From assembly GCA_913057645.1 (NCBI GenBank), contig CAJXOU010000006.1, positions 1 through 64,000 on the forward strand: a stretch of DNA of 64,000 nucleotides, given 5' to 3'. Each line of letters opens with the position of its first letter. The stretch's first letter is position 1. Both the position numbers and the translations under genes were made by a program. This stretch comes from an uncultured Rhodobiaceae bacterium (GTDB taxonomy: Bacteria; Pseudomonadota; Alphaproteobacteria; Parvibaculales; Parvibaculaceae). Positions 22,155 through 43,264 of the stretch are shown piece after piece. A model generated the notes under the pieces. It was not told the DNA's origin and made no database searches. It was given only the letters and a program-made list of their open reading frames with translations.

Positions 22155-22967
22155 ATGGCGAGAAGCGAGGACAAGCCCGGACCGAAGGTGGTCGTAATCA
22201 CCGGTGCGAATGGCGGCATTGGGGCTGCGCTTTCTCGCGCCTATGCAGCGCCGGGTGTGCATCTCGGTCTTCTGGGAAGAAACGAAGAGACGCTCGCAGG
22301 TGTGGCGGCGGACTGCCGGAGAAAGGGCGCCTCCGTAGAAACCCTGGTCGCGGATGTAACCGGGCCGGCGGTCATCGACCTCCTTCTGGAGTTCGACGCA
22401 CGCCATTCTATCGATCTTCTGATCGCAGGAGCCGGCGTCACATCTGGAATTCCGGCGCCGAACAACATGGAGCCCTGGGACACCGCCGAAGCGGCCTTGC
22501 TGACGAATTTTGTTGGCGGCGTTCGAACGATTGCGCCTGTTGCCGCCCGAATGGCGGAACGGGGTCGTGGGCAGATTGCGGCAATTGGCTCCCTGGCCGC
22601 GCTGACGCCATTACCCTTCAGCCCGGCGTACAGTGCGGCGAAGGCGGGCCTGACCGTCTACGTAAGGGCGTTGAGGCGCCTCCTCGCAGCAAGAGGTGTC
22701 CGTTTCACTGTGGTCAGTATCGGCTACGTGGATACGGCTATGAGCCGGAAGTTGACAGGCTCGAAGCGGTTCATGATAACGCCCGAGAGGGCAGCAAGAG
22801 TGATAAGAAAAGGGTTGGAGCGGAATCGCGCTCATCTGGCTTATCCAGTTGTATTGGCTACAGGAATTCGTGTGCTGAACCTGCTGCCGGAGCCCCTTGT
22901 TCGCTTGATACTTCCTGCCTTTGCTTTTACGATTTCTGGCTGGGAAGCTGGTGGTGGGGCCCCCTGA
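22155..22967 (+). CDS. rkpH: Short-chain dehydrogenase/reductase, RkpH-like
   Basis: 270 residues from the ATG at 22155, two bases after the previous stop (an ATG at 22137 is also open). The TGANGGIG cofactor motif lies near residue 18, and the catalytic Ser, Tyr and Lys appear in IGSLAALTPLPFSPAYSAAKAG. The C-terminal ~35 residues are strongly hydrophobic (YPVVLATGIRVLNLLPEPLVRLILPAFAF, non-contiguous with polar residues), like membrane-attached ketosphinganine reductases. In Sinorhizobium K-antigen loci an equivalent gene, rkpH, sits with rkpA, rkpG, rkpI and rkpJ. Reduction of a beta-keto lipid made by the PKS/RkpG pair is inference. Confidence 0.75.
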   Translation: MARSEDKPGPKVVVITGANGGIGAALSRAYAAPGVHLGLLGRNEETLAGVAADCRRKGASVETLVADVTGPAVIDLLLEFDARHSIDLLIAGAGVTSGIPAPNNMEPWDTAEAALLTNFVGGVRTIAPVAARMAERGRGQIAAIGSLAALTPLPFSPAYSAAKAGLTVYVRALRRLLAARGVRFTVVSIGYVDTAMSRKLTGSKRFMITPERAARVIRKGLERNRAHLAYPVVLATGIRVLNLLPEPLVRLILPAFAFTISGWEAGGGAP

Positions 22968-22996
22968 GTTTGCCAGGCTTCCATAAGGAGCAAGTA

Positions 22997-24598
22997 ATGG
23001 TGGGCGGTCTTGCGGGATTTTTTACTGCATTTCTCGCGGTGCTCGTCCTTGAGCGGTTTGCCGAACCGCGTCACCCCGAACGCCCGATTTTGCATCGCGT
23101 AAGTCTGCTGGCGGCGATGCCCCTGATTCTTTTCTATCTGTCGGTCTTCATGGTCACCTACAGGCCGATCTTCGCAACGCTTTTTACGATCATCGTCTTC
23201 CTTGGCATTGTCGTCGTCAACAACGCCAAAGTGCGCGAACTGAACGAACCGCTCGTTTACTCGGATTTCGCGCTGTTACGTCAGGCGATCGAGCACCCGG
23301 GGCTTTACGTAACCTATATCGGACCGTTCAAGGTGGCCGCGGTCATCCTGTCCGGCGGAGCGAGCATTCTTGCCTGTCTTGTATTTGAGCCGCCTGTAGT
23401 CGTACGCGATACGGCTGCGGAATGGATTGCGACGCTCGCTTACTTCCTTGTTTTCTTCGGCGCGATCTACGCAATCACACGCGGGCCACTTCGCAATGAG
23501 TTCAGGCAGATACTGAAAAGATTCGGCGCGTCGACCGATATTCGTGAGGACGTCGACAAGCTCAGCCTCGTCATCTCGCTGATCTTTTACTTCTTTCTCG
23601 CGGGAGAACAGGACGAAGCTGTTGCTGTGTCGGAGCGGAATGAACGTGAAGACCGGACACGCATGTTGCAGGACGGCACCTCGCGCCCCGCAGTCGTGGT
23701 GGTTCAGAGCGAGTCGTTCTTTGATGCCCGCAACATCATGACGAAAGTTCCCGAAGGTTTTCTTGCGGAATTCGACAGGACGGCCGGCAACGCCAGATAC
23801 GCAGGTCGCCTTCGCGTGCCAGCATGGGGCGCCAACACGTTGCGGACCGAATTTGCGTTCCTCTCGGGAATTCCGGACGAAGCGCTCGGTGTCGACCGTT
23901 TCAATCCCTACCTCAAATATTGCAACAAGCCGGTATGGACGGTCGCATCATATTTTCGGAGCGTCGGATACAGGACTGTATGCATTCATCCGTTCCATAA
24001 ATCCTTTTTCAGAAGGAACCGTGTGTATCCGCATCTTGGATTCGATGAATTCATCGACATTCAGGAGTTCAATGAATCCGACAAGTTGGGAACTTATGTC
24101 TCGGATGCTGCGGTAACGCGCAAGATCGAGGAGAAGTTGGCGGAAAGCGAGCGTCCTCTTTTCATTTTTGCGATCACCATGGAAAATCACGGCCCGTGGC
24201 GCCCGAAGCGGATCGATATTCCGGAAGCGGTGCTGGACGCAACGCCGAGAAGGGCGAGGAACGTCGCACAATATCTCGCTCACCTGGAAAATGCAGACGC
24301 CATGATAGGACGTTTGCGCAGGGTGTTGAAGAAGCAGGCTTCAGGAGCGGTATTCTGCTTTTACGGTGACCATCTGCCTGGATTCTCCAAGTTCTTCAAT
24401 GCCATCGGAATGAACGATCCGCGAACCGATTATTTCATCTGGCATACAGGACCGGCGGACATGAAGCGGCGCGCGAACGTCAGTGCCGATGCCGTCAATC
24501 GCATGATCCTCGAAGCTTTTGTCGCCGTGACTTCGAAAGGGGAAGAGAAAACGGACGAACGGGATCTCAGAAGACAAGAGGCGGGAAGAAACATATGA
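22997..24598 (+). CDS. rkpI: LtaS/MdoB-like membrane phosphotransferase (sulfatase fold), RkpI-like
   Basis: 533 residues from the ATG at 22997, which has AAGGAG nine bases upstream. Four or five membrane helices occupy residues ~1-210, followed by an alkaline-phosphatase-fold domain. Visible active-site elements are QSESFFDARN (metal), WGANTLRTEFAFLSG with the nucleophilic threonine (~280), HPFHKSFFRR, ENHGPW (~395) and YGDHLPGF (~456). LtaS and MdoB relatives move phosphoglycerol or phosphoethanolamine from phospholipids onto glycans. Within the Rkp-type cluster it may decorate the capsule or its lipid. Its stop overlaps the next start by four bases. Confidence 0.82.
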   Translation: MVGGLAGFFTAFLAVLVLERFAEPRHPERPILHRVSLLAAMPLILFYLSVFMVTYRPIFATLFTIIVFLGIVVVNNAKVRELNEPLVYSDFALLRQAIEHPGLYVTYIGPFKVAAVILSGGASILACLVFEPPVVVRDTAAEWIATLAYFLVFFGAIYAITRGPLRNEFRQILKRFGASTDIREDVDKLSLVISLIFYFFLAGEQDEAVAVSERNEREDRTRMLQDGTSRPAVVVVQSESFFDARNIMTKVPEGFLAEFDRTAGNARYAGRLRVPAWGANTLRTEFAFLSGIPDEALGVDRFNPYLKYCNKPVWTVASYFRSVGYRTVCIHPFHKSFFRRNRVYPHLGFDEFIDIQEFNESDKLGTYVSDAAVTRKIEEKLAESERPLFIFAITMENHGPWRPKRIDIPEAVLDATPRRARNVAQYLAHLENADAMIGRLRRVLKKQASGAVFCFYGDHLPGFSKFFNAIGMNDPRTDYFIWHTGPADMKRRANVSADAVNRMILEAFVAVTSKGEEKTDERDLRRQEAGRNI

Positions 24599-25902
24599 AA
24601 CGCGTCTTCCTGTTTCTTCAGGGCAGTAGTTGCCGGTTCTTTCCTGCATTGGGCAGAGCGCTTGCGGAGCGTGGCTACGGCGTTTGCCGTATAAACGCCA
24701 GTGGCGGGGACTGGTATTTCTGGCGAGACTGGAATGCCGTCGACTACAAGGGCGCCCTGAATGACTTCGGTTCGTTTGTAGGACAGAAAATTCGGTCCGA
24801 TGGTGTGACGGATATCGTTCTGTATAACGACTGCCGTCCTCTTCACAGGCGCGCCATCGAAACTGCACGCAAACTCGGATGCCGTATCTGGGTTTTCGAA
24901 GAGGGGTATTTGAGGCCGTACTGGCTCACGCTGGAAGAGGAGGGTGTCAACGGTTACTCGCCGCTGTTTCATGATCGTGAGCGGTTTCATCTGGAGGTTG
25001 TGGAAAAGGACGGAGGAGAGCCGCCATACAGGCCGACATCTTCTGCTCTAGCCTGGCGTGTAATCTACGATTTTCAGTGGCAGGGCTGGAACTATCTGCT
25101 GCGATTTCGTTATCCGCAGTACAGGACGCACCGCCCGTTTCCGATCTGGGCAGAGTACGCGACATGGACGCTGCGCCTCGCGCGGCTACCGTGGTCGCGT
25201 CGGCGGGCGGCACGCACGATCGAGACGCTCACCCGATCGGGTGAGCGCTACTTCGTCTTTCCGATGCAGCTCGACAGCGATTCGCAGGTGACGTCACATT
25301 CCGGGTTCACGGGTATGGAGCAGGCGCTGGAGCATGTGATTGGGAGTTTTGCCGCCAATGCGGCGCGCGACACGCAACTCGTCGTTAAGCTTCACCCTCT
25401 CGACAACGGCTGGATCAATTTTCGGGGCGTTACGCGCTCGATCGCAAAGCGGCTCGGCGTTTCCAGTCGCGTGCTGTTTATTGATGGCGGAAATCTCGAC
25501 GCGCTGGTGGCCGGCTCTCTGGGTGTCGTCACTCTGAACAGCACCGTCGGGTTGTCCGCATTAAAGCAGGGCAAGCCGGTCATTTGTCTGGCCAGGGCGA
25601 TATTCGATCTTCCCGGCCTGACTTTTCAGGGAAACATTGATCGCTTCTGGAGCGTGGAGCAGGGCCCGGACGGTGCATTGTTGCGGCGTTTTCTTGCCTA
25701 TTTGACAAGACGGGCGCTTATTGCTGGAGATTTTTATACATCCGAAGGTGTGGCTCTTGCTGTGACGAATGCCATTGATAGATTTGAGGCCGTTTCGGTG
25801 CCGGAAACTGCCGGATCTGCCGGACGAAGCTGGGTGCCGCAATCAGACACTCGTTTAGGGGAACGCCGATCGACCGAATCGGCGATGAGATCTGTGTCAT
25901 GA
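24595..25902 (+). CDS. kpsS: Capsular polysaccharide Kdo transferase / export protein, KpsS/RkpJ-like
   Basis: 435 residues, close to KpsS (single domain) and much shorter than the two-domain KpsC. Diagnostic blocks are FLQGSSCRFFPALGRAL at the N-terminus, WVFEEGYLRPYWLTLE, FPMQLDSDSQVTSHS (~223-237), KLHPLDNGWINF (~264) and LNSTVGLSALKQGKPV (~313). KpsS adds the first beta-Kdo to the lipid terminus of group 2 capsules and KpsC extends the linker; the single-domain enzyme here fits the first role. No KpsC, CMP-Kdo synthetase or arabinose-5-phosphate isomerase is in the window. It is translationally coupled (ATGA) to the RkpI-like gene. Confidence 0.88.
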   Translation: MKRVFLFLQGSSCRFFPALGRALAERGYGVCRINASGGDWYFWRDWNAVDYKGALNDFGSFVGQKIRSDGVTDIVLYNDCRPLHRRAIETARKLGCRIWVFEEGYLRPYWLTLEEEGVNGYSPLFHDRERFHLEVVEKDGGEPPYRPTSSALAWRVIYDFQWQGWNYLLRFRYPQYRTHRPFPIWAEYATWTLRLARLPWSRRRAARTIETLTRSGERYFVFPMQLDSDSQVTSHSGFTGMEQALEHVIGSFAANAARDTQLVVKLHPLDNGWINFRGVTRSIAKRLGVSSRVLFIDGGNLDALVAGSLGVVTLNSTVGLSALKQGKPVICLARAIFDLPGLTFQGNIDRFWSVEQGPDGALLRRFLAYLTRRALIAGDFYTSEGVALAVTNAIDRFEAVSVPETAGSAGRSWVPQSDTRLGERRSTESAMRSVS

Positions 25903-25969
25903 CGAAAGCTCTTCTCGCTGACATGGTTGGCTACGTACCGTGAGTAGCAACCACACCGAGGAAAACGTC

Positions 25970-27763
25970 ATGGTCGGCCCTGCCGACGAATTTTCGAAGC
26001 TCTATGGGGCCGGTGATGAAGAAGGTGCGCTCGATGTCGCGGTAACGGCATTGTCGTCGGGGGGCTTGTTTTCTCCCCCCTTCGAAAGCGTAAGTTGGCT
26101 TTGCGACGGGCTGCGCAGAAGACGCCATTTCCGGCTCGCCCTTTTGTTGATCTCGCAAGCGCAGGATCGTGGTTATCAGGGTTGGCGGGCGCTCTATCTG
26201 CGAGGAACGCTCGAAGCTTTGAACAGACGCGTAGGCGACGCAATAAACAGCCTCGAGCGCTGTCTCTCTCAATCTCCCGATGACAAGCGCGCCGAAGTGG
26301 CAACCGTTCTGGCCCGTATAAATGTCATCGCGGGCAACTACCAAATGGCGCAACGGCTCTTCGCGAAATATTCGAAGATCCGTGATCTACCGCCCGGCAT
26401 GGCGGACGTTGCGGTCAAGGCGGCGTTCAGCGCAGGAAACGTGGACTTGGCCCTTAGTTGGGGGCATCAGTCCGCGAACGTTCATGGCACGACGGCAGAA
26501 CGAGCCCGCTTCCTTGCCGCGGTGCACATGGACAGGTGCGAATGGCAGGAGGCACGTAAGACCGCTGAAGAGGGACTGAAGGTCGCCGCCGGAAATATCG
26601 AACTGCGCCGCCTGATGGCTCTGGCGTTCTTTCGCGAGGGGCGCATCGTTCCGGCCATAAATCATCTGGAAAGCATTGCTGGTGCCGAATCCGATTGGAC
26701 CGAAGGAAAGATCGTTCTCTGCAAATGTCTCGTTAGCGCTGGACGTATGCAGGAAGCACTGGTTGTCTTTCGTTCGATCGAACGCGAGGCTGGTTTCGAA
26801 GAGGAGGTAGACCTTCTTCGCACGCAACTTCATCAGGAGGACGGTTCTGCGGGAAGCGATATCGGGAAGGCGCGGGGCCGTCGCGAAAAGGATCCGTTCC
26901 AGGACAGGGAAGTACAACATCTGCTGGCGAACGTCCCCGACGATTTTGCACCGAGCTGGACGCGGGAAACCATAGCCAACAGCGGAAACATTCCGCGTGC
27001 CATCGGGAAGCTGTTTCATTCCGTGCGGACGATAATGCTGCGCGAGACAATGGCCAGGTTTGGGCGTCACGAGATCGGTTATCTGTGGGCGATCATTGAA
27101 CCGCTGATTCACGTCACCGTCGTCTCCTGCATCTTCTATTTCATTCGCATGCGCGACACGCTCGGGATGAATGTCGTTCTGTTTGTTGCAACCGGCATTA
27201 TTCCGCTCTTTTTCTACATGAAGACCTATTCCGGTCTCGTCAATGTGCTGAAACAGAACCGTCCCTTGCTGAACCATCCCGGGGTTCAGCCAATGGACAT
27301 CTTCTTTGCGCGAAGTATTCTGGAATTCTTCACCCAGCTTTTTGTTTTTGTTGTTTTCGTCTTTGCGATCTACCTGTTTATCGAGGAATACACGTTCGGC
27401 AACGTCTGGTCGGTTCTGACCAATCTTTTCGGCCTGTGGATTACGGGGATAGGAATGGGGTTACTCATCGGCTCCCTGGTCGTGTTTGCCGAGTCGATCA
27501 AGAATGTCATGGACGGGTCGAACAGGATCATCTACGTCGCCTCCGGCGTCTTCTTCACGCTCGATATGATGCCACCCGCCGTGGCTGAGTACCTCGAGTG
27601 GAATCCCTTGCTCCACTTTGTCGATGGCGTGCGGGGTAATTTCAATCCCTTGATGGGGGGGACCCGCGTCGATATCGGCTATGCATATGTGTGTGCGGTG
27701 GCGATATTGTTGTGCGGTCTCGTCGCGGATCGGGCACTGCGGCACAGAGTTCTCGATAGATGA
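25970..27763 (+). CDS. kpsM: Capsule ABC transporter permease KpsM with N-terminal TPR-like domain
   Basis: 597 residues from the ATG at 25970, chosen for the GAGGAAAA ribosome site; a GTG at 25940 is also open. KpsM is normally ~260 residues. The C-terminal ~260 (from NIPRAIGKLFHSVRTIMLRE at ~338) are a complete ABC-2 permease: the amphipathic entry helix, GYLWAIIEPLIHVTVV, RPLLNHPGVQPMD, six membrane helices and WNPLLHFVDGVRGNFNP. The first ~330 residues are helical repeats of TPR type, for example ARINVIAGNYQMAQRLFAKY and LMALAFFREGRIVPAINHLE. Such an added domain could dock biosynthetic enzymes at the exporter. Its stop overlaps the kpsT start (ATGA). Confidence 0.88.
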   Translation: MVGPADEFSKLYGAGDEEGALDVAVTALSSGGLFSPPFESVSWLCDGLRRRRHFRLALLLISQAQDRGYQGWRALYLRGTLEALNRRVGDAINSLERCLSQSPDDKRAEVATVLARINVIAGNYQMAQRLFAKYSKIRDLPPGMADVAVKAAFSAGNVDLALSWGHQSANVHGTTAERARFLAAVHMDRCEWQEARKTAEEGLKVAAGNIELRRLMALAFFREGRIVPAINHLESIAGAESDWTEGKIVLCKCLVSAGRMQEALVVFRSIEREAGFEEEVDLLRTQLHQEDGSAGSDIGKARGRREKDPFQDREVQHLLANVPDDFAPSWTRETIANSGNIPRAIGKLFHSVRTIMLRETMARFGRHEIGYLWAIIEPLIHVTVVSCIFYFIRMRDTLGMNVVLFVATGIIPLFFYMKTYSGLVNVLKQNRPLLNHPGVQPMDIFFARSILEFFTQLFVFVVFVFAIYLFIEEYTFGNVWSVLTNLFGLWITGIGMGLLIGSLVVFAESIKNVMDGSNRIIYVASGVFFTLDMMPPAVAEYLEWNPLLHFVDGVRGNFNPLMGGTRVDIGYAYVCAVAILLCGLVADRALRHRVLDR

Positions 27764-28416
27764 TTCACCTGATCGGAATCGAAAAGCACTACAACACCGA
27801 AGTGGGCATCAGGCAGGTGATCCTTGAAACGAACCTGTCCATTCCGACGCACAAACGCGTAGGAGTGCTGGGGCGCAACGGAGCCGGAAAGTCGACCTTG
27901 CTGAACATGATAGCAGGTGTCGACAGGCCGAACCGTGGCATGATCGTACGAGAGGCCCGTTTGTCCTGGCCGCTGGGATTCGCAGGCGGCTTTCATGGCG
28001 ACCTCACTGCCCGCGAGAATATATCGTTTGTGGCCCAACTTTATCGCGTTGACTATGAGGAGACATTCGCCCGTACGGAGGAATTCGCCGAAATCGGTGC
28101 ATATGTCGATATGCCGGTCCGGACGTACAGCCAGGGCATGAAATCCCGACTGGCATTTGGGCTCAGTCTGGCTATCAATTTCGACTGTTATCTTATCGAC
28201 GAAACGATCGGTGCCGGGGATCGCTTTTTCAGGCAGAAATCCCGCAAGGTCTTCCTCGAGCAATCGAAAGGGGCGGGTATGCTTCTGGTTTCACACAATG
28301 AGACCACGGTGAGGGAATACTGCGAAATTGCTCTCGTCATATACGAGGGGGTGCTGGTGCCCTTTGGTGACATAGATGATGCGATCGACTTTTACATGCG
28401 GAAATGCGCTCCATGA
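27760..28416 (+). CDS. kpsT: Capsule ABC transporter ATP-binding protein KpsT
   Basis: 218 residues, the usual KpsT length. Walker A is GRNGAGKST (~38-46), the ABC signature is the degenerate YSQGMKSR of this subfamily (~123), and Walker B is CYLIDETIGAGD (~142-153) with the H-loop in LLVSHNE. The substrate-handling residues of the long Wzt C-terminal domain are absent, as expected for a KpsMT-type exporter that carries a lipid-linked whole chain. It forms the inner-membrane pump with the adjacent KpsM and is coupled on both sides by overlapping stop/start codons. Confidence 0.93.
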   Translation: MIHLIGIEKHYNTEVGIRQVILETNLSIPTHKRVGVLGRNGAGKSTLLNMIAGVDRPNRGMIVREARLSWPLGFAGGFHGDLTARENISFVAQLYRVDYEETFARTEEFAEIGAYVDMPVRTYSQGMKSRLAFGLSLAINFDCYLIDETIGAGDRFFRQKSRKVFLEQSKGAGMLLVSHNETTVREYCEIALVIYEGVLVPFGDIDDAIDFYMRKCAP

Positions 28417-29639
28417 GTCCGAGATTTGGCAAAGACCATTTGACGAGAATGATGCGGGATGACGGGCCGGCAGGTAGGGCGCTCCTCTTCCTGAAGGAGC
28501 GGATTGTCCCGGTTCTTCAGGAGAGATTGCTGCCCATTCTGCAACTCGGTGTATCCAGACTTCTGTTCGTCGGCATTGTGATTGTCCCTTCGGTTCTGGC
28601 GATCATCTACTACGGGTTCTGGGCATCCGATCGGTATGTTTCCACGTCATTGATGACTGTGAGAACGTCGGATTCACAGCTTGTATCGACGTTCGATGGA
28701 TTGCTGGGTTCTCTTGGCGGGCAGACAGGTCTGGTCGACGGATATGTCGTTGAGGAATACATCCAGTCGCACGAGATAGCGAGAAAGCTCCAGGAGTCGG
28801 TCGACCTCAGATCAATCTACTCGGCGGACGAGGCGGACTACTGGTCGCGGCTCGATCCCGATGTCACATTCGAAGACTTCTTCAGCTACTACCTCAGTCG
28901 CATCGATGTTTATTTCGATTCCGAGGCAAACGTTGTTCATCTGGACGTCCAGGCCTACAGGCCGGCAGATGCGCAACGAATTGCGGCCGAGATCGTCAGG
29001 CTGAGCGACGACATGGTGAACCGCATCTCCGAACAATCGAGGACCGATGCCGTCGAGTTCGCTGCGGAGGAAGTGACGCTTGCCGAAAACAGGCTCCGCG
29101 ACAACCGCTTGACGCTCTATCGATTTCGCGAGGAGCATGGCGAACTCGATCCTGTCCGCTCGGCGGAGGCGATTGGCGGCATCGTCTCGAAGCTCGAAGA
29201 GGAACTGGCGAGATACAAGACCGAGCTCGCGTCGCTGCGCAGCTACATGCGTGAAGAGAGTGCGCAGATTGCTGGTGTCAAGGCGCGCATAGGCGCGATT
29301 GAACAACAGCTCAGGGCCGAACGCGGGCGCCTCACCAGCAGCCCGGACGATCCTGCAACGACCTATTCGGATCTATTGGCCGACTATGAACGCCTTCTGA
29401 TTGAGGAGGAGTTCGCCAGGTCCGCCTACACATCAGCGGTGTCGGCTCTTGAGGTGGCGCGAGCCGATGCGGCCCGTAAACAGGCCTACCTGGTGGCATT
29501 CGTCGAGCCTTCCATGCCGGACGCCGCATCCAAACCCGACAGGCTGCTAATCGTTGTATCTGTAGTAGCGTGTGGCCTGCTGGCATTCGGCCTGCTAATG
29601 TTAATCGGGGCAGCCATTAAGGAGCATGCGCGGATATGA
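28413..29639 (+). CDS. kpsE: Capsule export inner-membrane protein KpsE (PCP-3)
   Basis: 408 residues from an ATG overlapping the kpsT stop by four bases; an in-frame ATG at 28404 is the alternative. It has the polysaccharide co-polymerase layout: a membrane helix near residues 49-70 (LLFVGIVIVPSVLAIIYYG), a large periplasmic part with long coiled coil (about 200-350, VTLAENRLRDNRLTLYRFREE and on), and a C-terminal membrane helix (LLIVVSVVACGLLAFGLLML). KpsE links the KpsMT pump to the outer-membrane channel KpsD. The FVEPSMPDAASKPDRL segment before the second helix is the family's conserved proline-rich motif. Confidence 0.92.
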   Translation: MSPRFGKDHLTRMMRDDGPAGRALLFLKERIVPVLQERLLPILQLGVSRLLFVGIVIVPSVLAIIYYGFWASDRYVSTSLMTVRTSDSQLVSTFDGLLGSLGGQTGLVDGYVVEEYIQSHEIARKLQESVDLRSIYSADEADYWSRLDPDVTFEDFFSYYLSRIDVYFDSEANVVHLDVQAYRPADAQRIAAEIVRLSDDMVNRISEQSRTDAVEFAAEEVTLAENRLRDNRLTLYRFREEHGELDPVRSAEAIGGIVSKLEEELARYKTELASLRSYMREESAQIAGVKARIGAIEQQLRAERGRLTSSPDDPATTYSDLLADYERLLIEEEFARSAYTSAVSALEVARADAARKQAYLVAFVEPSMPDAASKPDRLLIVVSVVACGLLAFGLLMLIGAAIKEHARI

Positions 29640-31402: not shown

Positions 31403-31414
31403 CGCTTCTGGAGG

Positions 31415-32467: not shown

Positions 32468-32564
32468 CAGGCGCTCTTTATGTGTTAAAGTCGCTATCGG
32501 CGGCGGCAGGGACGTATCGTCTCGGGGGCTGTTGTCCATATTCGTTTCAGGGGGTAGGTGACCG

Positions 32565-32897
32565 ATGCACCGGCTGGTTCTCTTATTGACGTTGAGCATC
32601 GGGCTGGCCGCTTGCGAGACGGTACCTTCGGACGAAACGGTTGATCCTCTTTCGCCTGCTGCGGCGCCCGCGGCGACTGATGCTGTTGCGCGATACGCCG
32701 TCGGCGCCTCGCCGGGAGCTTCCGCGCCCGTAATGTCCGGGACTGGATCGAGCGTCACTGTTCAGGTGGGCTCATACTATACATCGGCTCTCGGAGAGCG
32801 TTGCCGGCGCGTCGTTCTGTCGGATGGATTTGGCAGGTCGCAGGTCAGCGCGGTCTGCTTGGTGGATGCTGGCTGGACGACGGTTGTCGGTCTCTAG
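32565..32897 (+). CDS. Small outer-membrane lipoprotein of unknown function
   Basis: 110 residues with GGTAGGTG upstream of the ATG. A lipoprotein signal peptide is clear: charged N-terminus, hydrophobic core and the lipobox LAAC (cysteine 17). After a disordered Ala/Pro/Ser-rich linker (~20-60) comes a small folded domain (VTVQVGSYYTSALGERCRRV, then SQVSAVCLVDAGWTTV) holding two further cysteines that could form a disulfide. It is the last gene of the + strand capsule run and ends 8 bp from the convergent rkpG-like stop. A role in capsule surface assembly is suggested only by position. Confidence 0.8.
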   Translation: MHRLVLLLTLSIGLAACETVPSDETVDPLSPAAAPAATDAVARYAVGASPGASAPVMSGTGSSVTVQVGSYYTSALGERCRRVVLSDGFGRSQVSAVCLVDAGWTTVVGL

Positions 32898-32905
32898 TTT
32901 TTCGT

Positions 32906-34276
32906 CTACGCCGCCGGGCCCTCGTGAATCGGCGCGTTCTTCAGGCGCGTCATATGGGCTTCGACGCGGGAAACCGTATGCCTGATCTGTTCTTCAGTGT
33001 GGGCGCTTGAGATAAAGAACCGCAGGCGGGCGATTCGTTCCTCCACTGCCGGATAGATGATGGGCGGCACGTTGATGCCGTCCTCGAACAATGCCTTCGA
33101 CAAGCGCACGGCAAGCAGAGAGCTGCCAGTTATCACAGGTAGCACGGTCGTACCCACCGCATATCCCGTGTCGAGTCCGGCTTCCTGTGCCAGTCGAAGC
33201 ATCAACTGTCCATTCTCCTGCAACTTACGCACGCGATCTGGCTCATCTTCCATCAGCAGAAGAGCTTCAAGTGAAGCCGCGGCGATCGGCGGCGGCATGC
33301 CGACAGAGTATAGGAAGCCGGAAGCGGTATGCTTCAGGAGAGAAACGAGGGCTTCGGAGCCAGCTATATAACCGCCGCATCCGGCGAGCGTCTTTGAAAG
33401 AGTACCCATCCAGATATCAACGTCGTTTGGTGCTAGGCCAAAATGCTCGCCGACACCTCTCCCCCTCTTGCCGAGAGCGCCGAACGAGTGTGCTTCGTCG
33501 ACCATGACGAGGGCCTTGTGCCTTCTTGCAACCTCGATGATCTCGGGCATTGGCGGGATGTCGCCATCCATTGAATAGACGCCTTCGACACAGATGAGCA
33601 CCTTTTCGAATTTTCGTCGCGACCGGCCAAGGAGTTCATCGAGTCCGCGCCAGTCATTGTGATCGAACGGCTGGCGCTGTGCTCCGGAAAGAAGCGCGCC
33701 CTGCATCACAGAGTTGTGGATCAGACGGTCGTGCAGAATGAGATCGCGCTTTCCAAGTAGCGTTCCGATGGTGGTTACATTGGTTGCGTGCCCGGAGACG
33801 AATGTGATCGCTGCCGGTGTTCCGTGAACTTCGGCAATCTTTGCTTCGAGTTCACGATGCGGTCGTCGCTCGCCAGAAACCAGACGGCTCGCCGAAGCGG
33901 ATGTTCCGAAAATCTTCATGGCTTCGTAGGCGGCTTCGACTACCCGCGGATGTCCGTTCAGGTTCAGATAATTGTATGTCCCGAAATTGATGACCTTCCG
34001 GCTTCCGATAAGGGCCGTATCGTTGGATATGGAATCGTGCTCGACGAAATAGGGACTTTCCAGATCGATTTTCTTGGCCAGCATTTGCTGTAACTCAAGC
34101 GTCTGGTATTCGGCGAACTTCTCGAAGCGGTAGTGAGACTCGGGAATATCACGCAAGGCGCCATTGGACGTCGCCTCACCGGCGATGTCTTTGCGCTTTT
34201 CCAGTATTCGTCGCAGAGCCTCTTCCTTGGATTCCCTGGAGAGCTTGCGGGTCTTGGCGGGATCGTCGTCTGTCAC
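32906..34276 (-). CDS. rkpG: PLP-dependent alpha-oxoamine synthase, RkpG-like
   Basis: 456 residues; its ATG overlaps the PKS stop by four bases, so the two are coupled. After a ~90-residue charged N-terminal extension comes the AONS/serine-palmitoyltransferase fold: NFGTYNYLNLNGHPRV, SASASRLVSGERRPHRELE, VDEAHSFGALGKRGRG and the PLP-lysine motif GTLSKTLAGCGGYIAG (Lys ~291). The family condenses an acyl thioester with an amino acid, releasing CO2 and giving an alpha-amino ketone. Being the immediate partner of a PKS that carries its own ACP, it probably off-loads that chain onto an amino acid. In rhizobia the equivalent is rkpG, needed for K-antigen. Confidence 0.85.
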   Translation of the reverse strand: MTDDDPAKTRKLSRESKEEALRRILEKRKDIAGEATSNGALRDIPESHYRFEKFAEYQTLELQQMLAKKIDLESPYFVEHDSISNDTALIGSRKVINFGTYNYLNLNGHPRVVEAAYEAMKIFGTSASASRLVSGERRPHRELEAKIAEVHGTPAAITFVSGHATNVTTIGTLLGKRDLILHDRLIHNSVMQGALLSGAQRQPFDHNDWRGLDELLGRSRRKFEKVLICVEGVYSMDGDIPPMPEIIEVARRHKALVMVDEAHSFGALGKRGRGVGEHFGLAPNDVDIWMGTLSKTLAGCGGYIAGSEALVSLLKHTASGFLYSVGMPPPIAAASLEALLLMEDEPDRVRKLQENGQLMLRLAQEAGLDTGYAVGTTVLPVITGSSLLAVRLSKALFEDGINVPPIIYPAVEERIARLRFFISSAHTEEQIRHTVSRVEAHMTRLKNAPIHEGPAA

Positions 34277-37200
34277 GTGCCAAACTGCGTTGCAATATTG
34301 GATTTCTCGTCTGCCAGGTCCGTGCGCCTGGCATTCTCGATATCCATGTCGTTTACATGACGAGAGATGATCGTGTCCACATTTTGCAGGAGTTCATCCG
34401 GCGAGGCCGCTTCCTCGCCCTTGAGTTGCGCGACGATTTGTTCCGCAAGGGTATTCAGGCTTCCACCTTCGGACAGGGCCATGACAGGAATTTCGATTCC
34501 GAACCTGTCTTCGATGCCGAGCTTGAGTTCCAGCGCCATCAAGGAGTCCATGCCGAGGTCGAATATCGATTTTCCCGTATCGACCTTGTCCGGGGTGAGG
34601 CGCAGAACAGCTCCGATTTCTTCGGCGAGTATTTGAGAGACATGCGCCACGCCCTCCTCGAGAGACATTTCCGCGAGCCGGGCAAGAATATTTTCATCGC
34701 TCGATGCTCCCGCACCTCGAGCTGTACCTGGCGCAACATCCCGATAGACGGGTTGTTGCAGGATCGGCAGCCCCGCACGAAGGCGTTGCCAGTTTACATC
34801 TCCCACATAGAAGTTTGTGTTGCCGTCCGTCAATACCGCTTCAAGCTCCTGCATGGCTTCGGCGGTCGTCATGAGTGTGCTTCCCATACGATTGCTCAAT
34901 TGGTCGCGCAGTTCTTTGTTGCGGGCAAGAAAACCGGTGTCCGAAATCGCGCCCCAGCCGATGGTTTGCGAGGGGAGGCCGATCGCCCGCCGATGTTGCG
35001 ATAGCGTTTCGAGGAACGCGTTGGCCGCAACGTAGTTTGCCTGTCCCGGATTTCCCAAAGCCGTGCTGATCGAAGAATAAAGCACAAAGAAATCGAGAGT
35101 GCGTGCCACCGTAGCTCTGTGCAGTGCCATCGCTCCGTAAACCTTCGGTTCGACGACGCGACGATACTGCTCCTCGTTCATGCGGTCGATTGTTGCATCG
35201 TCGAATATGGCGGCAGCATGGATCACGCCGCGAATGGGCGCACCTGCAGTCTCCGCTTCTCTGAACAGGGTTTCGATTGCTGCTTCCTCGGTGACGTCGC
35301 AAGCTCTGGCAACTACGTTCACGCCGCTGCTCTCAAGACTGTCGACGGCTTTGCGCGCGGCTTCGCTCGCAGGCCCGGACCGGCTAACAAGTATGAGATT
35401 TCGGGCTCCTACGGATGCCAGCCATTGTGCGGTCGCAAGACCGAAGCCCGAACACCCCCCTGTCACGAGATAAGACGCTTCCGGTCGCGGGCTGAACACG
35501 GTGTGGCGCTTGTCGATCGGGATGAATGCTCTCTGCGGCGGGCGGACAAGTATCTTGCCGATATGTCCGGATTTCTGCATGAGGCGGAAAGCGTCGGATA
35601 TCCTGGGAGCCTCGAACACACGATAGGGAAGTGGCGTATAGACACCCTGCTCGAAACGTTCGACCAGATCGGCGAATATCTCCCGTGCAAGCTCGGGCTT
35701 TTCTTCCATGAGCTGGTCTGCATCAATGCCGAAATAGCTCAGATTATTGCGGAAGAACTTGAGTCCAATCCGGCTGTTTTCGTAGAAGTCGCGTTTGCCG
35801 AGTTCGAGAAAACGTCCAAACGGGCGCAGAATGGCGAGGTTGCGGTGAATGGCGTCACCCGCGAGCGAATTGAGAATGACATCGACGCCCTCTCCGTTCG
35901 TGGCCGCGAGAATGTCATCGGCAAATTGCTGAGAACGCGAATCGAATATTCGCTGCTCAGGAACACCGAGCGCCATCATGAGTGTTCGCTTCTCGAGGCT
36001 GCCAACGGTCACGAATATTTCGGCGCCAGCCTGCCGGGCCACTTGCAAGGCAGCAAGGCCGACACCGCCGGCCGCTCCATGAATGAGCAGCCGTTCGCCG
36101 CGCCGCACTCGGGCGAGATGATCCAGAGCGTACTGCGCGGTAAAGAAGGCCGTCGGAATGGTTGCTGCTTCATCGAAGCTCAAACTGGCGGGTTTGTGGA
36201 TGGCAGAACCTGCTTTGGCCAGCACGTGGCTGTCGAAACAGTTGGGTGCGAAAAAGAACACTTCATCTCCGGCCTTGAAATCCCCGGAATCTGCTCCCGC
36301 CGCCACGACGACGCCTGACGCTTCCATGCCGAGGCAGGCGCCGGCGAAACCGTCTTCGAGAGCTTCTGCCGGTAGCGCTCCCAGTGCAAACATCACGTCG
36401 CGGAAATTGAGCGCAGTCGCCCGCGGCGCGATCACGAGCTCGTCTGGTCCCGGTTGTGGCAATGGCGCCTTTTTCCAGGCGAGCGTACCAAGCCGCCCGC
36501 TCGTGAAATGCAATTTCTGCATGGTTGCATCGTCGACATCGTTGTTCGCTGCTGCAGGGCGCAGGCGTGGTGCGAAGATGCCATCGGAGCGAACAATCAG
36601 CTCCGCCTCCGGTCCGTCTCGGAGTAAGGCGTGCGCCACGTCGAGAACGGCAGCATCAGGCAAAGCCCCGTCTGTCTCTATGTCGATCATCCGAATACGG
36701 GCGCGAGGAATCTCGTTGGCAACAACACGGCCGATTCCCCAAAGAGGAGCCTGCACAAGATTCGTGCGTTTGTTCGGCTGAAAGCTGGTCGCGTTGCAGG
36801 TGACGATGCTGAGTTGGGGCGTTTCCGTAAAATTGATCTTGGTCATGGCACGGGCAGCGAGCAGGGTGCTCCAGCCAGGCCTGCTGTCTGAGGAGATATC
36901 GCCGACGAGCACAACCCCCTTCAGCGATATGCCTGCAGCGTGCACCATTTCATACGACTCGAGCCATTGGCTCTCGTCGTCGGGATCGAAAGGCAAAGAA
37001 TCTATGCCGTCTTCCGTTTCCGTGCCATTGGCATGCAGACGGACAACGATTGCGCCGCGCTGCTCCAGCAATTCGCAGAGTCTATCGGCAATGGCAGCAT
37101 CCGGCTTCGCCGGATCGAGGACCACGATCCAACCTGTATCCTCGGCGTCCGGTATTGGTCTCCCTTTCAAGGCACCGGATATGTGTCCACGACGTTCATC

Positions 37201-40200
37201 GCCATCCGCGATCACAACCGTGGTGTCACGGCAAAGGGCAAACTGGACATTGCGATATCCTGCCTGGGCAAATCGTTCGCCGAACAGCTCGGAGGTCAGC
37301 AGCGGAGAAGTGCCGTCAGGGCGCCACCAATGACTGCGCGATCCGAAAACCGTATCTGCCCACAAGGATGGTAGCGGATCGGAGGCCATGAGAAGTCCGC
37401 CCGGGACGAGCAAGCTGCGAATGTTGTTGAGTAGTGGGCTCGTCAGCCCGCACTCCACCGAGACCATTGGCGCGAGGATCAAATCAAACGAACCCAACCT
37501 TGCCAGATCGGTATCGGAGAGAATGCTGGCGAGATCTGCCTCCATAAATCGTACGTCGGGAGAATCGACATCGCGCTCCAGAGCAGACATCCGTGTCCCG
37601 TCGGCGCAGGCAACGGTAACTTCGATCTCGGATTTGGAGGAAATGTCGCGAATATCCCTGACCAGCGCATTTGCGCAGCCGATTTCAAGAATACGTAGCC
37701 TGCGCCTTTCCGGCCAGCGTTCGACGAATGTCTTGATCGCATCACACAGCATCGTTCTGGCCTTCCCATAGCTGGGAGACGAAGCGAGGATGTGTTCGGT
37801 TGTCGACGACGACAGATTGCTTGCGCCGCTCATAGTTCCTTGGCGAAAAGCTTCTGCCTGACAGAGAATTGCGGTGAGCTCCGAAAGGTATGCAGGGTGT
37901 CTGATGAACGCATTGTTCCAAATGCTTCTGGCGTCATCTGCGATCGTTCCATTGGCGGCTTCCGGCAATTTCGAGGACAGGTCACAGCATAGCGCGGCAG
38001 GAAGGGGCGGAGAGCCTTCTGTACGCTGTTGCGCTTCGAACAATAGAGAGGCGGTAATGGCATCCAGGTTAGGTGCGTCCGCTGCGGGTTTCCGATCCGT
38101 GCGGTCGGAGAATCCAAGCGCATTCGCGATCTGCGCTGCGCCGGGCGTTACATCGTCTGCATCGGAATAATCCAGGGGAATGGTCTCGAAGCGGAACCGG
38201 CGCCCGGCTTCACGGCCTGCCTGCAGTCCGGCAAGCATGAAACGCACACCCGTCATTTCCGCGATACAGTTTCCGCTGTGGTCAAAAAGTTCGAAGTCGG
38301 CAACCAGGGATTTTTCCTTGCGCTTGCGCAAGACCGTACGGCAGCTCGAGACCTCGGATCGGGCGCGAAACACTTTGAGGCGATTGATCTGATAGGGCAA
38401 ATAGGCGTCTGCCGCTCGTTCTCCCTTCAAATAGAGAAGGGAGAAGAGCGACTGGAGGCACCCATCCATGAAGCTCGGATGAAGGACAAATTTGTGCAGG
38501 TCGTCCTGCACGCCTTCCGGTGTCCGGAATGTAGCAACGGCAAGGTTGCCGTCTGCATGGATGGATTCAACGGTCCTGAAAGAGGGCCCATAGTCGAGGC
38601 CGAGTGCGCTGGCAATTTCGTAGTGTTCGCCGTGTATGAGCACAGTGGCATTTTCCGGCTTCTTCGGCGCGTCCGGTGTATGCGTCTTGACGGAGTTCGG
38701 GACGTTGAGACGCCCAACTGCATTGAGCGTCCACCGGTCGTCGCTCGCACGCCTCCGCGTCTCGATGCGAAACGCCTTGTCTTCCTCGTCGTAGATGAAA
38801 CGGAAGTTGATGATCTGATTTCGAGCCAGGACGATGGGGCGGCGGATTTCGAGCGTCTCGATGTCGAAGGCGGCGTCTCCAAAAAGAGCAGCGGAAGCTT
38901 CAAGCGCACATTCCGCGTACCCGGCTGCCGGAAACACGATTGTATCGCCGACATTGTGGTCATTCAGGAAACGAAATCGCTCGACGTCGATCTGGCTTTC
39001 CCATGTCGAATGCGCTGATTGGGGCCGGACTCCGATAAAGGGCCCGTCGCTGCGCCGATACATCGCGCCGGTCGCTTCGGGACCCGTCTTGAACCAGTGG
39101 GGTTTGCGTTGCCAGGCGTACCGCGGCAGCTCGGCACATCGCCCGCGAACGGGGAATGATGCGGATAGGTCGACATCTGCCCCTCTGCAGAGAGCGGTGT
39201 CGGCAGTTCGCTGCACAAGACTTGCGCCAGCTTCGCCCCGGGACATGGTGCCAAGCGGCGTGAAGTCGCTGTTTCCGTCGCGTAGAATCTGCCTCAGATA
39301 GGAAGTGAGGACTGGATGAGGCCCGATCTCGATCAACAGCTCGATGCCGTCATTGACCATCGCGGTGATGGCGTCGCTGAAGAGCACTGGATTTCTGATG
39401 TTTTCCCACCAGTACTCGGCGTCGAGAAAGAAGGGATGCGCGATTGCCCCTCGCGCCGAAGAATAGAATGGAATTTTCGGGGCGGCTGAATCGAATTCTC
39501 CGAGCAGCCGCTGGAAATCGTCTCGTATGGAATCCATCGCCTGGCTGTGAAACGCATAGTCGAGGTCGAGAAGTCGGAAGAAGACGCGTTCTTCCTCAAG
39601 TTTCATTCCGAGCGTTTTCAGAGAGTTTTCGTCGCCAGAGAAAGTCACGGAATTGGCGGCATTGATGGCCGCTAGTTCGATCCTGCCGGCCGATTCTTCC
39701 TCGATACGTCGTGCTCTCTCGGGGGACACGCCGGCCGCAGCCATGCGTCCCCGTCCGTGCGTGAGTTCCTGCGCGCGCGATCGCGCAGCGATGAGCCGGG
39801 CGGTCTGGGATAGGTCGATAGCGCCTGAAACATATGCGGCGGCGACTTCGCCCACGCTGTGCCCGGCCACGGCGTCTGGCGCCAGACCCGCTCTGGTCAG
39901 ACAGGCTGCAATCCCGATCTGAACGGCCAGTAAGGCCGGTTGCGCGATATCCGTGTGCTGGAACTGTTCTTCGGCGCTCTCCGAAAACAGTGCTTTGACG
40001 ACCGACTGGCCTGTAATCGCTGTGATTTCGGTGTCAAGACGGTCGACCTCCGCTCTGAATATCTCACTCTCTTCGTAGAGTTGGCGCCCCATTCCGGCCC
40101 ACTGGGCCCCGTTGCCGCTGAAAACGAAGCCTGTTTTCGCTGCTTTCGTCTTCGCTTCGCCCGACACGGCATTGCCGCCACTCGCGGCAAAAGCGCTCAG

Positions 40201-41736
40201 TTCACGGACAATGGACGAAGTGTCTTTGCCGCGAAAGACGACGCGGAAGGGTAGGCGTTCTCTCCGATAGGCGGCGGTATGGGCGGCATCGTAATAGTCC
40301 CGCTCGTTCATCCCATCAAGGAACGACACCCAGTTCTCCGCTGCATCGTGAAGTGCGGCGGGAGAACGCGCGGAGAGGATGAGAGGCGGCGCGGGGGGCG
40401 TTTGCGCCTGCAGCGGAATCTCTGTGCCGATATGTTCGCGCAAAATGACGGTTGCATTGGCGCCGCCGAAACCGAAGGAGTTAACGCCCGCCATGATCGG
40501 GCCCTGCTTTGGAGGCAGCCGCGTCAGTGTTTGAACTGGCGCGATGTTCAACCCCTGAAAGTCGATATTGGGGTTGAGTGGCGTCGCGTGCAGTGTGGCC
40601 GGCACGGCGCGGTGTTTGATCGCCATGACTGTCTTGATGAGTCCCGCCATTCCGGACGCAGGTTCCAGATGCCCGATATTGGATTTGGCTGAGCCGATCG
40701 GCAACGGACCGGTTCCGGGCTTTCGGTGCTGGCCGATCGCTTCGCCCACGGCCCGGCATTCTGCTGGATCGCCAACTGTGGTCCCTGTGCCATGAGCTTC
40801 GAAGAAATCGATATCCGCGGGATCGATTTCGAATTTCGCCATCGTTTCTTCGATAAGCGAACGTTGCGCGGTCGATGAGGGGAGCGCTATGCCATTCGTG
40901 CGTCCGTCTGCATTCGTGCCGGATCCGCAGATGACCGCGTGAATCGGATCGCCATCACGCATTGCGTCCGCCAGCGGTTTGATGACAACGACACCACCTC
41001 CTTCGCCACGCACATACCCGCCGGGCTCGGCGCCAAAGGCGCGGCATAGTCCGTAATCCGACAACATCGTGGCCTTGGCGAACCCCACAAACGGGAAGGG
41101 GGTAAGCAGCAGGCTGATGCCTCCCACCAGCGCCATGTCGCAGCGGCCAGCCCAGAGCGCGTTCAGCGCTTCATCGAGGGCGACCATGGCAGAAGAGCAT
41201 GCCGTGTCGACCGCCATGCTCGGACCGCGTAGATCGAACTGATAGGAGAGACGATTTGCGGCGATGGACAGCGTGGCGCCCAGCATCAGATAGGCGTTTG
41301 CGCTATCCGGGTCACCCTGCTGGGCAGACCCGTATTCTGTTGACGAGATGCCGACATAGACCGCGCAATTACGGCCTTCGAGGCGACTCGGAATTTGTCC
41401 GCCCGATTCGATCGCCTCCCACGCCATTTCGAGCAGCAGACGCTGCTGCGGGTCCATCGCATCGGCCTCCCGGCGCGAGATGCCGAAGAAGGCCGCATCG
41501 AAGCCCCGTATGTCGTCGAGTACGCCTGCAGCGAAAGTATTGGAACGGCCGGGAACGCGTTTGCTGGGATGCCTGAAGAGTTCCTTTTCCCACCTGTCGG
41601 CAGGAATTTCGGTCACGGCGTTCCGGCCCCCGGCCAGTAGAGTCCAGTAGGCCTCAGGAGTATTGCAACCTCCGGGGAACCGGCAGGCCATTCCGACGAT
41701 GGCCATGTCGGTTCGCTTGATGCCGGGAACCCTCAT
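34273..41736 (-). CDS. rkpA: Iterative fully reducing type I polyketide synthase, RkpA-like
   Basis: 2487 residues from the ATG at 41736 (an upstream GTG at 41778 is less likely). Domain order: KS (~10-430; DTACSSA at ~177, HGTGTTVGDPAE, KSNIGHLEPASG), AT (~540-850; GHSVGEVAAAY at ~624), DH (~900-1190; NDHNVGDTIVFPAAGY at ~924, LHPSFMDGCLQ), a methyltransferase-like region (~1330-1480), ER (~1710-2030; LNFRDVMFALG, IHGAAGGVGLAAL), KR (~2090-2280; TGGCSGFGLA, YSSIST, NYVAANAF) and ACP (~2360-2440; LGMDSLMALE, phosphopantetheine Ser ~2395). All catalytic motifs except the methyltransferase look intact, so it should build a saturated chain. The size and coupling to an oxoamine synthase match Sinorhizobium RkpA. 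Confidence 0.93.
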   Translation of the reverse strand: MRVPGIKRTDMAIVGMACRFPGGCNTPEAYWTLLAGGRNAVTEIPADRWEKELFRHPSKRVPGRSNTFAAGVLDDIRGFDAAFFGISRREADAMDPQQRLLLEMAWEAIESGGQIPSRLEGRNCAVYVGISSTEYGSAQQGDPDSANAYLMLGATLSIAANRLSYQFDLRGPSMAVDTACSSAMVALDEALNALWAGRCDMALVGGISLLLTPFPFVGFAKATMLSDYGLCRAFGAEPGGYVRGEGGGVVVIKPLADAMRDGDPIHAVICGSGTNADGRTNGIALPSSTAQRSLIEETMAKFEIDPADIDFFEAHGTGTTVGDPAECRAVGEAIGQHRKPGTGPLPIGSAKSNIGHLEPASGMAGLIKTVMAIKHRAVPATLHATPLNPNIDFQGLNIAPVQTLTRLPPKQGPIMAGVNSFGFGGANATVILREHIGTEIPLQAQTPPAPPLILSARSPAALHDAAENWVSFLDGMNERDYYDAAHTAAYRRERLPFRVVFRGKDTSSIVRELSAFAASGGNAVSGEAKTKAAKTGFVFSGNGAQWAGMGRQLYEESEIFRAEVDRLDTEITAITGQSVVKALFSESAEEQFQHTDIAQPALLAVQIGIAACLTRAGLAPDAVAGHSVGEVAAAYVSGAIDLSQTARLIAARSRAQELTHGRGRMAAAGVSPERARRIEEESAGRIELAAINAANSVTFSGDENSLKTLGMKLEEERVFFRLLDLDYAFHSQAMDSIRDDFQRLLGEFDSAAPKIPFYSSARGAIAHPFFLDAEYWWENIRNPVLFSDAITAMVNDGIELLIEIGPHPVLTSYLRQILRDGNSDFTPLGTMSRGEAGASLVQRTADTALCRGADVDLSASFPVRGRCAELPRYAWQRKPHWFKTGPEATGAMYRRSDGPFIGVRPQSAHSTWESQIDVERFRFLNDHNVGDTIVFPAAGYAECALEASAALFGDAAFDIETLEIRRPIVLARNQIINFRFIYDEEDKAFRIETRRRASDDRWTLNAVGRLNVPNSVKTHTPDAPKKPENATVLIHGEHYEIASALGLDYGPSFRTVESIHADGNLAVATFRTPEGVQDDLHKFVLHPSFMDGCLQSLFSLLYLKGERAADAYLPYQINRLKVFRARSEVSSCRTVLRKRKEKSLVADFELFDHSGNCIAEMTGVRFMLAGLQAGREAGRRFRFETIPLDYSDADDVTPGAAQIANALGFSDRTDRKPAADAPNLDAITASLLFEAQQRTEGSPPLPAALCCDLSSKLPEAANGTIADDARSIWNNAFIRHPAYLSELTAILCQAEAFRQGTMSGASNLSSSTTEHILASSPSYGKARTMLCDAIKTFVERWPERRRLRILEIGCANALVRDIRDISSKSEIEVTVACADGTRMSALERDVDSPDVRFMEADLASILSDTDLARLGSFDLILAPMVSVECGLTSPLLNNIRSLLVPGGLLMASDPLPSLWADTVFGSRSHWWRPDGTSPLLTSELFGERFAQAGYRNVQFALCRDTTVVIADGDERRGHISGALKGRPIPDAEDTGWIVVLDPAKPDAAIADRLCELLEQRGAIVVRLHANGTETEDGIDSLPFDPDDESQWLESYEMVHAAGISLKGVVLVGDISSDSRPGWSTLLAARAMTKINFTETPQLSIVTCNATSFQPNKRTNLVQAPLWGIGRVVANEIPRARIRMIDIETDGALPDAAVLDVAHALLRDGPEAELIVRSDGIFAPRLRPAAANNDVDDATMQKLHFTSGRLGTLAWKKAPLPQPGPDELVIAPRATALNFRDVMFALGALPAEALEDGFAGACLGMEASGVVVAAGADSGDFKAGDEVFFFAPNCFDSHVLAKAGSAIHKPASLSFDEAATIPTAFFTAQYALDHLARVRRGERLLIHGAAGGVGLAALQVARQAGAEIFVTVGSLEKRTLMMALGVPEQRIFDSRSQQFADDILAATNGEGVDVILNSLAGDAIHRNLAILRPFGRFLELGKRDFYENSRIGLKFFRNNLSYFGIDADQLMEEKPELAREIFADLVERFEQGVYTPLPYRVFEAPRISDAFRLMQKSGHIGKILVRPPQRAFIPIDKRHTVFSPRPEASYLVTGGCSGFGLATAQWLASVGARNLILVSRSGPASEAARKAVDSLESSGVNVVARACDVTEEAAIETLFREAETAGAPIRGVIHAAAIFDDATIDRMNEEQYRRVVEPKVYGAMALHRATVARTLDFFVLYSSISTALGNPGQANYVAANAFLETLSQHRRAIGLPSQTIGWGAISDTGFLARNKELRDQLSNRMGSTLMTTAEAMQELEAVLTDGNTNFYVGDVNWQRLRAGLPILQQPVYRDVAPGTARGAGASSDENILARLAEMSLEEGVAHVSQILAEEIGAVLRLTPDKVDTGKSIFDLGMDSLMALELKLGIEDRFGIEIPVMALSEGGSLNTLAEQIVAQLKGEEAASPDELLQNVDTIISRHVNDMDIENARRTDLADEKSNIATQFGT

Positions 41737-42967: not shown

Positions 42968-43142
42968 TTTCCAGCGTCCTTCTTCTGATTGGTGTTTCCG
43001 CATGAGTTCGTATTGCAGGAAAGGTGTCCGCACGGCTTGAAAAAGCAAAGCGCGGAGCTTGTGCCGAGAATCTGAGAAATGGATACCGCCGGTCTGTCGC
43101 AGCCGCTCACGGCTTGGTCTGAGCCCGCTGAACGGCGCATTC

Positions 43143-43175
43143 CCGGACGAATTATCAATTTTTATGAACGTCCGG
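43143..43175. promoter_or_regulatory. Inverted repeat upstream of the dioxygenase operon, operator candidate
   Basis: A perfect 7-bp inverted repeat (CCGGACG and CGTCCGG) flanks a 19-bp A/T-rich spacer, unusual in this GC-rich setting. It lies 90 bp before the first gene of the meta-cleavage operon. Elsewhere between 42968 and 43264 nothing else is recognised apart from the AGGAGG ribosome site. Confidence 0.45.
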
Positions 43176-43264
43176 ATTACGTGATTTCCTCCGACACGCT
43201 GCATGCTTTTCGCAACAACCGCCGCACGCGGAATTGCGAAAGCAGCGGAACAAGGAGGAAAGCC

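Follow-up and report, generated by a model that had tools for sequence, protein, structure and literature searches.

The window analysed here is a stretch of 64,000 nucleotides from an uncultured Rhodobiaceae bacterium (GenBank assembly GCA_913057645.1, contig CAJXOU010000006.1, positions 1 to 64,000 of the forward strand), in which a capsule export locus adjoins genes for a candidate lipid pathway (Table 1). On the forward strand a short-chain dehydrogenase/reductase (SDR) gene opens the run SDR-PGT-KpsS-KpsM-KpsT-KpsE-KpsD, where PGT stands for a putative phosphoglycerol transferase; this order is that of a capsule export operon. Convergent to it, a polyketide synthase (PKS) gene is directly followed by the gene of an alpha-oxoamine synthase (AOS). 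The set, in which the genes of SDR, RkpI-like transferase and KpsS directly follow one another, is that of rhizobial rkpA-G-H-I-J. It corresponds by published annotation to Burkholderia wcbR-T-P-Q, the B. pseudomallei genes having been matched through annotation and papers. PKS, AOS, SDR and PGT are referred to below as the cassette.

Table 1. Genes of the capsule and lipid locus. KS, ketosynthase; AT, acyltransferase; DH, dehydratase; MT, methyltransferase; ER, enoylreductase; KR, ketoreductase; ACP, acyl carrier protein; Kdo, 3-deoxy-D-manno-octulosonic acid; TPR, tetratricopeptide repeat.
Feature	Position	Strand	Length	Basis or remark
GNAT acyltransferase	21568..22152	+		profile match; adjoins SDR
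RkpH/WcbP/SgaC-type SDR, likely 3-keto reductase	22155..22967	+		adh_short match
RkpI/WcbQ-type LtaS/GacH-fold phosphoglycerol transferase (PGT)	22970..24598	+	542 aa	between SDR and KpsS; Pfam: sulfatase
KpsS/RkpJ-type Kdo transferase	24595..25902	+		PF05159
KpsM permease with fused N-terminal TPR region	25940..27763	+		profile matches
KpsT ATPase	27760..28416	+		profile matches
KpsE/CtrB inner-membrane export protein	28404..29639	+		TIGR01010, E 2e-83
KpsD/Wza-type outer-membrane export protein	29636..31402	+		Poly_export, SLBB
Glycosyltransferase group 1 (weak match)	31415..32467	+		convergent with AOS; kept beside AOS in the genus
RkpG/WcbT/SgaB-type AOS	32906..34276	-	456 aa	solved relatives, cofactor-site residues, tree
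RkpA/WcbR/SgaA-type iterative reducing PKS	34273..41736	-	2487 aa	KS-AT-DH-(pseudo-MT)-ER-KR-ACP; Pfam domains and catalytic motifs

The PKS reading frame starts with an ATG at 41736; it stays open further upstream to a GTG at 41778, a start that would give a protein of 2501 residues. Pfam matched the KS, AT, DH, ER, KR and ACP domains with E values from 1e-85 to 1e-12, and a weak methyltransferase match (E 4e-5) was found between DH and ER at residues 1343-1512. Across 49 aligned PKSs the Cys-His-His residues of the KS, the AT Ser, the DH His and Asp, the nucleotide motifs of ER and KR, the Ser-Tyr of the KR and the region of the ACP Ser are retained; the sequence of congener L119 ends before the ACP, and its ACP is outside this comparison. 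The S-adenosylmethionine (SAM) motif of the methyltransferase region, on the other hand, is degenerate and unconserved across the same alignment. We therefore attribute residues 1343-1512 to a pseudo-methyltransferase, and a methyl-branched chain was rejected as product on the basis of the unconserved SAM motif. The AT motif YAFH suggests malonyl-CoA as substrate. From the six intact domains and the dead methyltransferase a straight, saturated acyl-ACP would be expected. No thioesterase domain was detected in the PKS by the Pfam search, so that release of the chain probably falls to the AOS. One fully reducing module without thioesterase is also the arrangement of the SgaAB sphinganine synthesis discussed below. 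An earlier note, made by a model that saw only the letters and the open reading frames, had described a 2487-residue PKS with these six domains; the gene and the domains are confirmed, and the pseudo-methyltransferase has to be added to its list.

The GTG start of the AOS gene shares 4 bp with the PKS stop codon (..GGCACGTGACAG..). This overlap is compatible with the translational coupling that had been proposed for the pair, and an overlap or near abutment recurs in S. meliloti (14842 versus 14845) and in congeners. The closest solved relatives of the AOS are the serine palmitoyltransferases (SPTs) 3a2b/8guh (E 5e-70), and K295, the lysine that binds pyridoxal 5'-phosphate (PLP), is invariant among eight homologues together with H187, D260, H263 and R419. 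With its PLP site intact and SPTs as nearest solved relatives, the sequence is consistent with SPT activity. Among the NCBIfam models the AOS stays under every equivalog cut-off for SPT, BioF and 5-aminolevulinate synthase (ALAS); its top score is for BioF, also under the cut-off, and against the canonical SPT equivalogs it reaches 298.5 (cut-off 640), 277.3 (500) and 210.5 (670). In a phylogenetic tree it groups with capsule-linked AOSs of rhizobia, Burkholderiales and Pseudomonas, apart from BioF and ALAS (99/95 support), although the placement of some long branches is unsure. Assignment as a canonical SPT was rejected because of the low equivalog scores and the separate clade. The AOS is not the BioF or ALAS of the host either, since these are other genes (L006 and L002); the host genome contains an ALAS, which suggests an alphaproteobacterium, together with a BioF-like gene, and an SPT cut-off was reached by none of its scanned aminotransferase-family genes, weaker fragments being left out. 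The same clade takes in AOSs of Planctomycetes, cyanobacteria and one Streptomyces plasmid. Fusion to an acyl-AMP ligase is seen in two Planctomycetota members (L050, L080) and fusion to KS-AT domains in the one on the Streptomyces plasmid (L036), so that enzymes of this clade seem to be supplied with their chain by a dedicated loading partner. No capsule genes were detected in the stretches surrounding these three AOSs, which may belong to further sphingoid-lipid pathways.

The SDR is assigned as a classical SDR by its adh_short match, the library used containing no KDSR-specific model. Its position next to the KpsS-type gene and the export genes agrees with the ketosphinganine-reductase-like SDR that had been placed in the export operon. 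In named loci with flanks an SDR is present only where the phosphoglycerol transferase is also present (11/11).

The PGT gene had been overlooked in the earlier note, whose pathway was otherwise largely right. By sequence, the best solved matches of its product are GacH (E 7e-20) and LtaS. An AlphaFold2 model with a mean pLDDT of 83 gave GacH with sn-glycerol-1-phosphate as best fold match (E 8e-14), followed by LtaP and LtaS; the fold search indicated that the surrounding alkaline-phosphatase fold also includes phosphoethanolamine transferases. Residues E248, T290, R349, H407, D467 and H468 are invariant among homologues, and we take this Glu, Thr, Arg, His, Asp-His set to correspond to the catalytic set of LtaS. 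The catalytic domain is predicted to be periplasmic from the positive-inside rule, applied to six hydrophobic segments. The protein thus combines a membrane N-terminus with an alkaline-phosphatase-fold domain that has the catalytic Thr and the metal ligands, as in LtaS and GacH, and its membership of the phosphoglycerol transferase family is supported by strong homology. An arylsulfatase was rejected, since it is suggested by the Pfam name only and both sequence and fold point to a phosphoglycerol transferase.

The association of these genes was followed in several sets of genomes. Five annotated plasmid loci (S. meliloti pSymB, Pseudomonas, Caballeronia, Paraburkholderia and Shinella) carry PKS, AOS, SDR and PGT with export genes, and in four of the five KpsS lies within the stretch. 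A scan of public genomes gave 80 named loci, and the gene core was also found in many of the gamma- and betaproteobacterial ones. Of 42 stand-alone AOS homologues in named genomes for which 8.5 kb or more of upstream sequence was present, 38 adjoin the PKS, an adjacency far beyond chance. Where both flanks were present (n = 29), the PKS was adjacent in 28 and a transferase, KpsS or export gene was nearby in 22; the latter number is an underestimate, as the transferase of Bordetella LUAb4 (G089) is 23 kb away. In four Burkholderiales loci (L033, L035, L089, L094) an LpxC-like deacetylase gene lies between PKS and AOS.

For co-occurrence, 201 genomes from a single bacterial family were compared, with KpsS-type genes scored as PF05159. 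The AOS is present in 52, the transferase in 50 and a KpsS-type gene in 49 genomes. AOS and transferase occur together in 48 (phi 0.92), at most 40 kb apart in 43 of these, compared with 39 genomes for AOS and KpsS (phi 0.70) and 38 for transferase and KpsS (phi 0.69). Genomes lacking KpsS divide into 12 with AOS and transferase, one with the AOS only, none with the transferase only and 139 with neither. The transferase therefore follows the AOS and not KpsS. The same pairing is seen among 200 Pseudomonas genomes, where all eight AOS carriers have the transferase (nine transferases in all), and in the genus and relatives of the window, where it is found in six of six carriers of a close AOS (eight transferases in all). 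A class-wide sample, with AOS matches in 9 of 229 genomes, was too sparse for statistics. That the cassette always travels with KpsS was rejected, since 13 of the 52 AOS genomes have none; one of the loci compared (G412) reads PKS-AOS-KpsD-M-T-E with SDR-PGT further along, and Nitrosomonas europaea carries PKS-AOS-KpsDMTE and no PF05159 gene. A general rule by which the cassette replaces KpsC was rejected as well, since many cassette genomes have KpsC-like two-domain proteins.

The enzyme logic of the locus has a counterpart in fungal fumonisin-type pathways, in which a reducing PKS without thioesterase is unloaded by an AOS and ketoreduction follows. There the product is a secreted fungal metabolite made in an unrelated context, and the methyltransferase that is degenerate at our locus is active. 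Among bacteria, the rkp-1 region for the K antigen of S. meliloti contains the same five genes, in the pSymB record as PKS-AOS-SDR-(RkpI, unannotated there)-KpsS in a row, with 51% identity for the AOS, 29% for the SDR and 31% for the PGT. At our locus, in contrast, PKS and AOS run convergently towards the operon of SDR, PGT, KpsS and export genes, and no KpsC was found in the genome. According to titles and summaries, rkpG-J are involved in making the K antigen, and a literature summary gives the K antigen of S. meliloti 1021 as all Kdo with a phospholipid anchor.

The closest experimental precedent is SgaAB of P. fluorescens MYb115, whose sgaA, sgaB and sgaC likewise encode an iterative PKS, an AOS and a KDSR-like SDR. 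SgaA and SgaB are reported to make C24-C28 sphinganines, SgaB being in vitro an SPT almost exclusively specific for serine, and lipids heavier by 154 Da are described there as most likely phosphoglycerol-sphinganines (Peters et al. 2025, PMC12134224). The main text of that report names no head-group enzyme and mentions neither capsule nor rkp or wcb. In Pseudomonas loci the order is KpsS-SDR-PGT-GNAT-X-(Y)-AOS-PKS; in L188, where X and Y are both present, four genes separate AOS and SDR, which would equal the count implied by the published sgaB and sgaC locus tags. In Cobetia marina, wcbPQRT has been called a lipid-carrier operon (PMC11766843). The Cobetia and Burkholderia operon is reported to adjoin kpsSC and a capsule ABC transporter and to include an LTA-synthase-like WcbQ, a setting similar to that of our locus; in that account, unlike the present proposal, the lipid is not described as sphingoid and WcbQ is assigned to decoration of the polysaccharide. 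Canonical group 2/3 capsules, built on lysophosphatidylglycerol (lyso-PG) and poly-Kdo by KpsS and KpsC, share KpsS and KpsMTED with our locus and differ from it by the dedicated lipid genes found here. In the host genome, a draft that is 99.99% complete, KpsS is the single PF05159 gene and no two-domain KpsC was found; the contigs of this draft gave no rRNA match. In a fold search KpsS matched nothing more specific than generic epimerase/glycosyltransferase folds, at low TM-scores, and this result was left out of account.

On this basis we propose the following pathway. The iterative PKS would assemble, on its own ACP, an acyl chain that is long, straight and saturated. The AOS would then unload it in a condensation between the acyl thioester and an amino acid, which from the SgaB precedent is most likely L-serine; the product would be 3-keto-sphinganine, whose keto group the SDR would reduce to yield sphinganine. 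The RkpI-like PGT would move glycerol phosphate from phosphatidylglycerol onto a sphinganine hydroxyl. The resulting phosphoglycerol-sphinganine would be a single-chain, glycerol-ended mimic of lyso-PG, and the PGT would thus explain how a sphingoid base becomes a lyso-PG-like acceptor. KpsS may add Kdo to its glycerol in place of lyso-PG, with the chain built on the lipid, exported by KpsMTED and anchored by the sphingoid lipid; where homologous loci have no KpsS, the chain would be begun by some other transferase. Strong homology supports chain building, amino-acid condensation and ketoreduction, and also the family of the transferase. The use of serine, sphinganine as acceptor of the PGT, phosphoglycerol-sphinganine as anchor and the addition of Kdo to it are what we infer. 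Overall, we lean slightly towards the view that the locus makes an ABC-transporter-exported capsule together with its own dedicated phosphoglycerol-sphinganine anchor. For the broader statement, that widespread Gram-negative ABC-transporter capsules, some without KpsS, are anchored on polyketide-derived phosphoglycerol-sphinganine and not on lyso-PG, and that RkpI/WcbQ is the enzyme behind the phosphoglycerol sphingolipids of Pseudomonas, we see the chances as even. The sphingoid-like lipid postulated in the earlier note has good support from the assigned families, from the intact PKS motifs and from the reported SgaAB chemistry (PMC12134224). Its caution that the product is unproven still holds for the rkp loci and no longer for the homologous Pseudomonas PKS/AOS pair, which is reported to make sphinganines. 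The suggested role as terminal anchor for KpsS is favoured by genetic linkage; with 12 of the 48 genomes that have AOS and transferase lacking a KpsS-type PF05159 gene, it can be one use at best.

Several observations weigh against a phosphoglycerol-sphinganine anchor. Orthology to SgaB is drawn from genus, gene order and family only, and the co-occurrence counts are uncorrected for shared descent. The catalytic domain of the PGT is predicted to be periplasmic and KpsS is cytoplasmic, so that one inward flip of the lipid would be needed. A poly-Kdo linker of the ordinary kind could be made by many cassette genomes, which have KpsC as well. In canonical capsules lyso-PG serves without any genes of the PKS/AOS type, and it suffices for KpsS/KpsC (PMC7694667); KpsS capsules without the cassette occur (G388, L191). 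Lyso-PG may then anchor this capsule too. The PKS/AOS product would be a distinct sphingolipid with a membrane or signalling role, and its genes would only accompany those of the capsule; in line with this, the SgaAB sphingolipids are reported as free lipids that affect a nematode host (PMC12134224). We consider this unlikely, given the tight linkage of the cassette to capsule export genes in several proteobacterial groups, KpsS-free loci included, and the reported part of rkpG-J in K-antigen production.

The transferase could also act on the polysaccharide: bare sphinganine from PKS, AOS and SDR would be the anchor, the first sugar would be put directly on it, and the RkpI-like enzyme would later decorate the polysaccharide with phosphoglycerol in the periplasm. 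The predicted periplasmic domain fits this, as does GacH, the nearest solved relative, which decorates a polysaccharide. WcbQ of Cobetia, whose locus has wcbPQRT, is likewise credited with transfer of glycerol phosphate onto the polysaccharide, and the capsule repeat carries it (PMC11766843). The transferase tracks the AOS, however, and the capsule I repeat of B. pseudomallei and the K antigen of S. meliloti 1021 are described in the sources available without phosphoglycerol, yet wcbQ and rkpI are reported in those species, which counts against a general decorating role. Together with the phosphoglycerol-sphinganine proposed for MYb115 (PMC12134224), this makes periplasmic decoration quite unlikely in our view. 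It is very improbable that the AOS takes alanine or glycine to form an aminoketone of the 1-deoxysphinganine type. The logic of PKS, AOS and SDR would be that of the fumonisin pathway (FUM13), and BioF gives the top, if sub-threshold, NCBIfam score; against this stand the SPTs as best solved matches and the reported serine specificity of SgaB, and without a C1 hydroxyl there would be no obvious site for the co-occurring phosphoglycerol transferase.

The locus belongs to the known rkp/wcb type, and the pathway is a testable proposal. What rkpA/G/H/I and wcbR/T/P/Q produce is a question that goes back to studies of the rhizobial K antigen in the 1990s; combined with the SgaAB chemistry of 2025 and the co-occurring PGT, it leads to a specific predicted molecule with a gene for each step. 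If phosphoglycerol-sphinganine is the anchor, capsular sphingolipids would be widespread among bacteria believed to have no sphingolipids, the rule that capsules are anchored on lyso-PG would have a large exception, and the effects of Pseudomonas sphingolipids on the nematode host may stem from a capsule pathway.

Some further features of the region were noted. A GNAT related to the one beside the SDR adjoins the transferase or the SDR in congeners and in the Pseudomonas loci; for the MYb115 lipids, the text of PMC12134224 describes no N-acylation. KpsM has a TPR region of about 300 residues N-terminal to its permease domain, and the interval is similarly long in congeners; in several other loci compared KpsM has about 270 residues. 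The PKS is adjoined at 43079-46179 by genes for subunits of a Rieske dioxygenase and for an SDR, which seem to be unrelated catabolic genes. Finally, a sulfotransferase gene (18863-19660, forward strand) lies among the capsule glycosyltransferases, and the capsule may therefore be sulfated.

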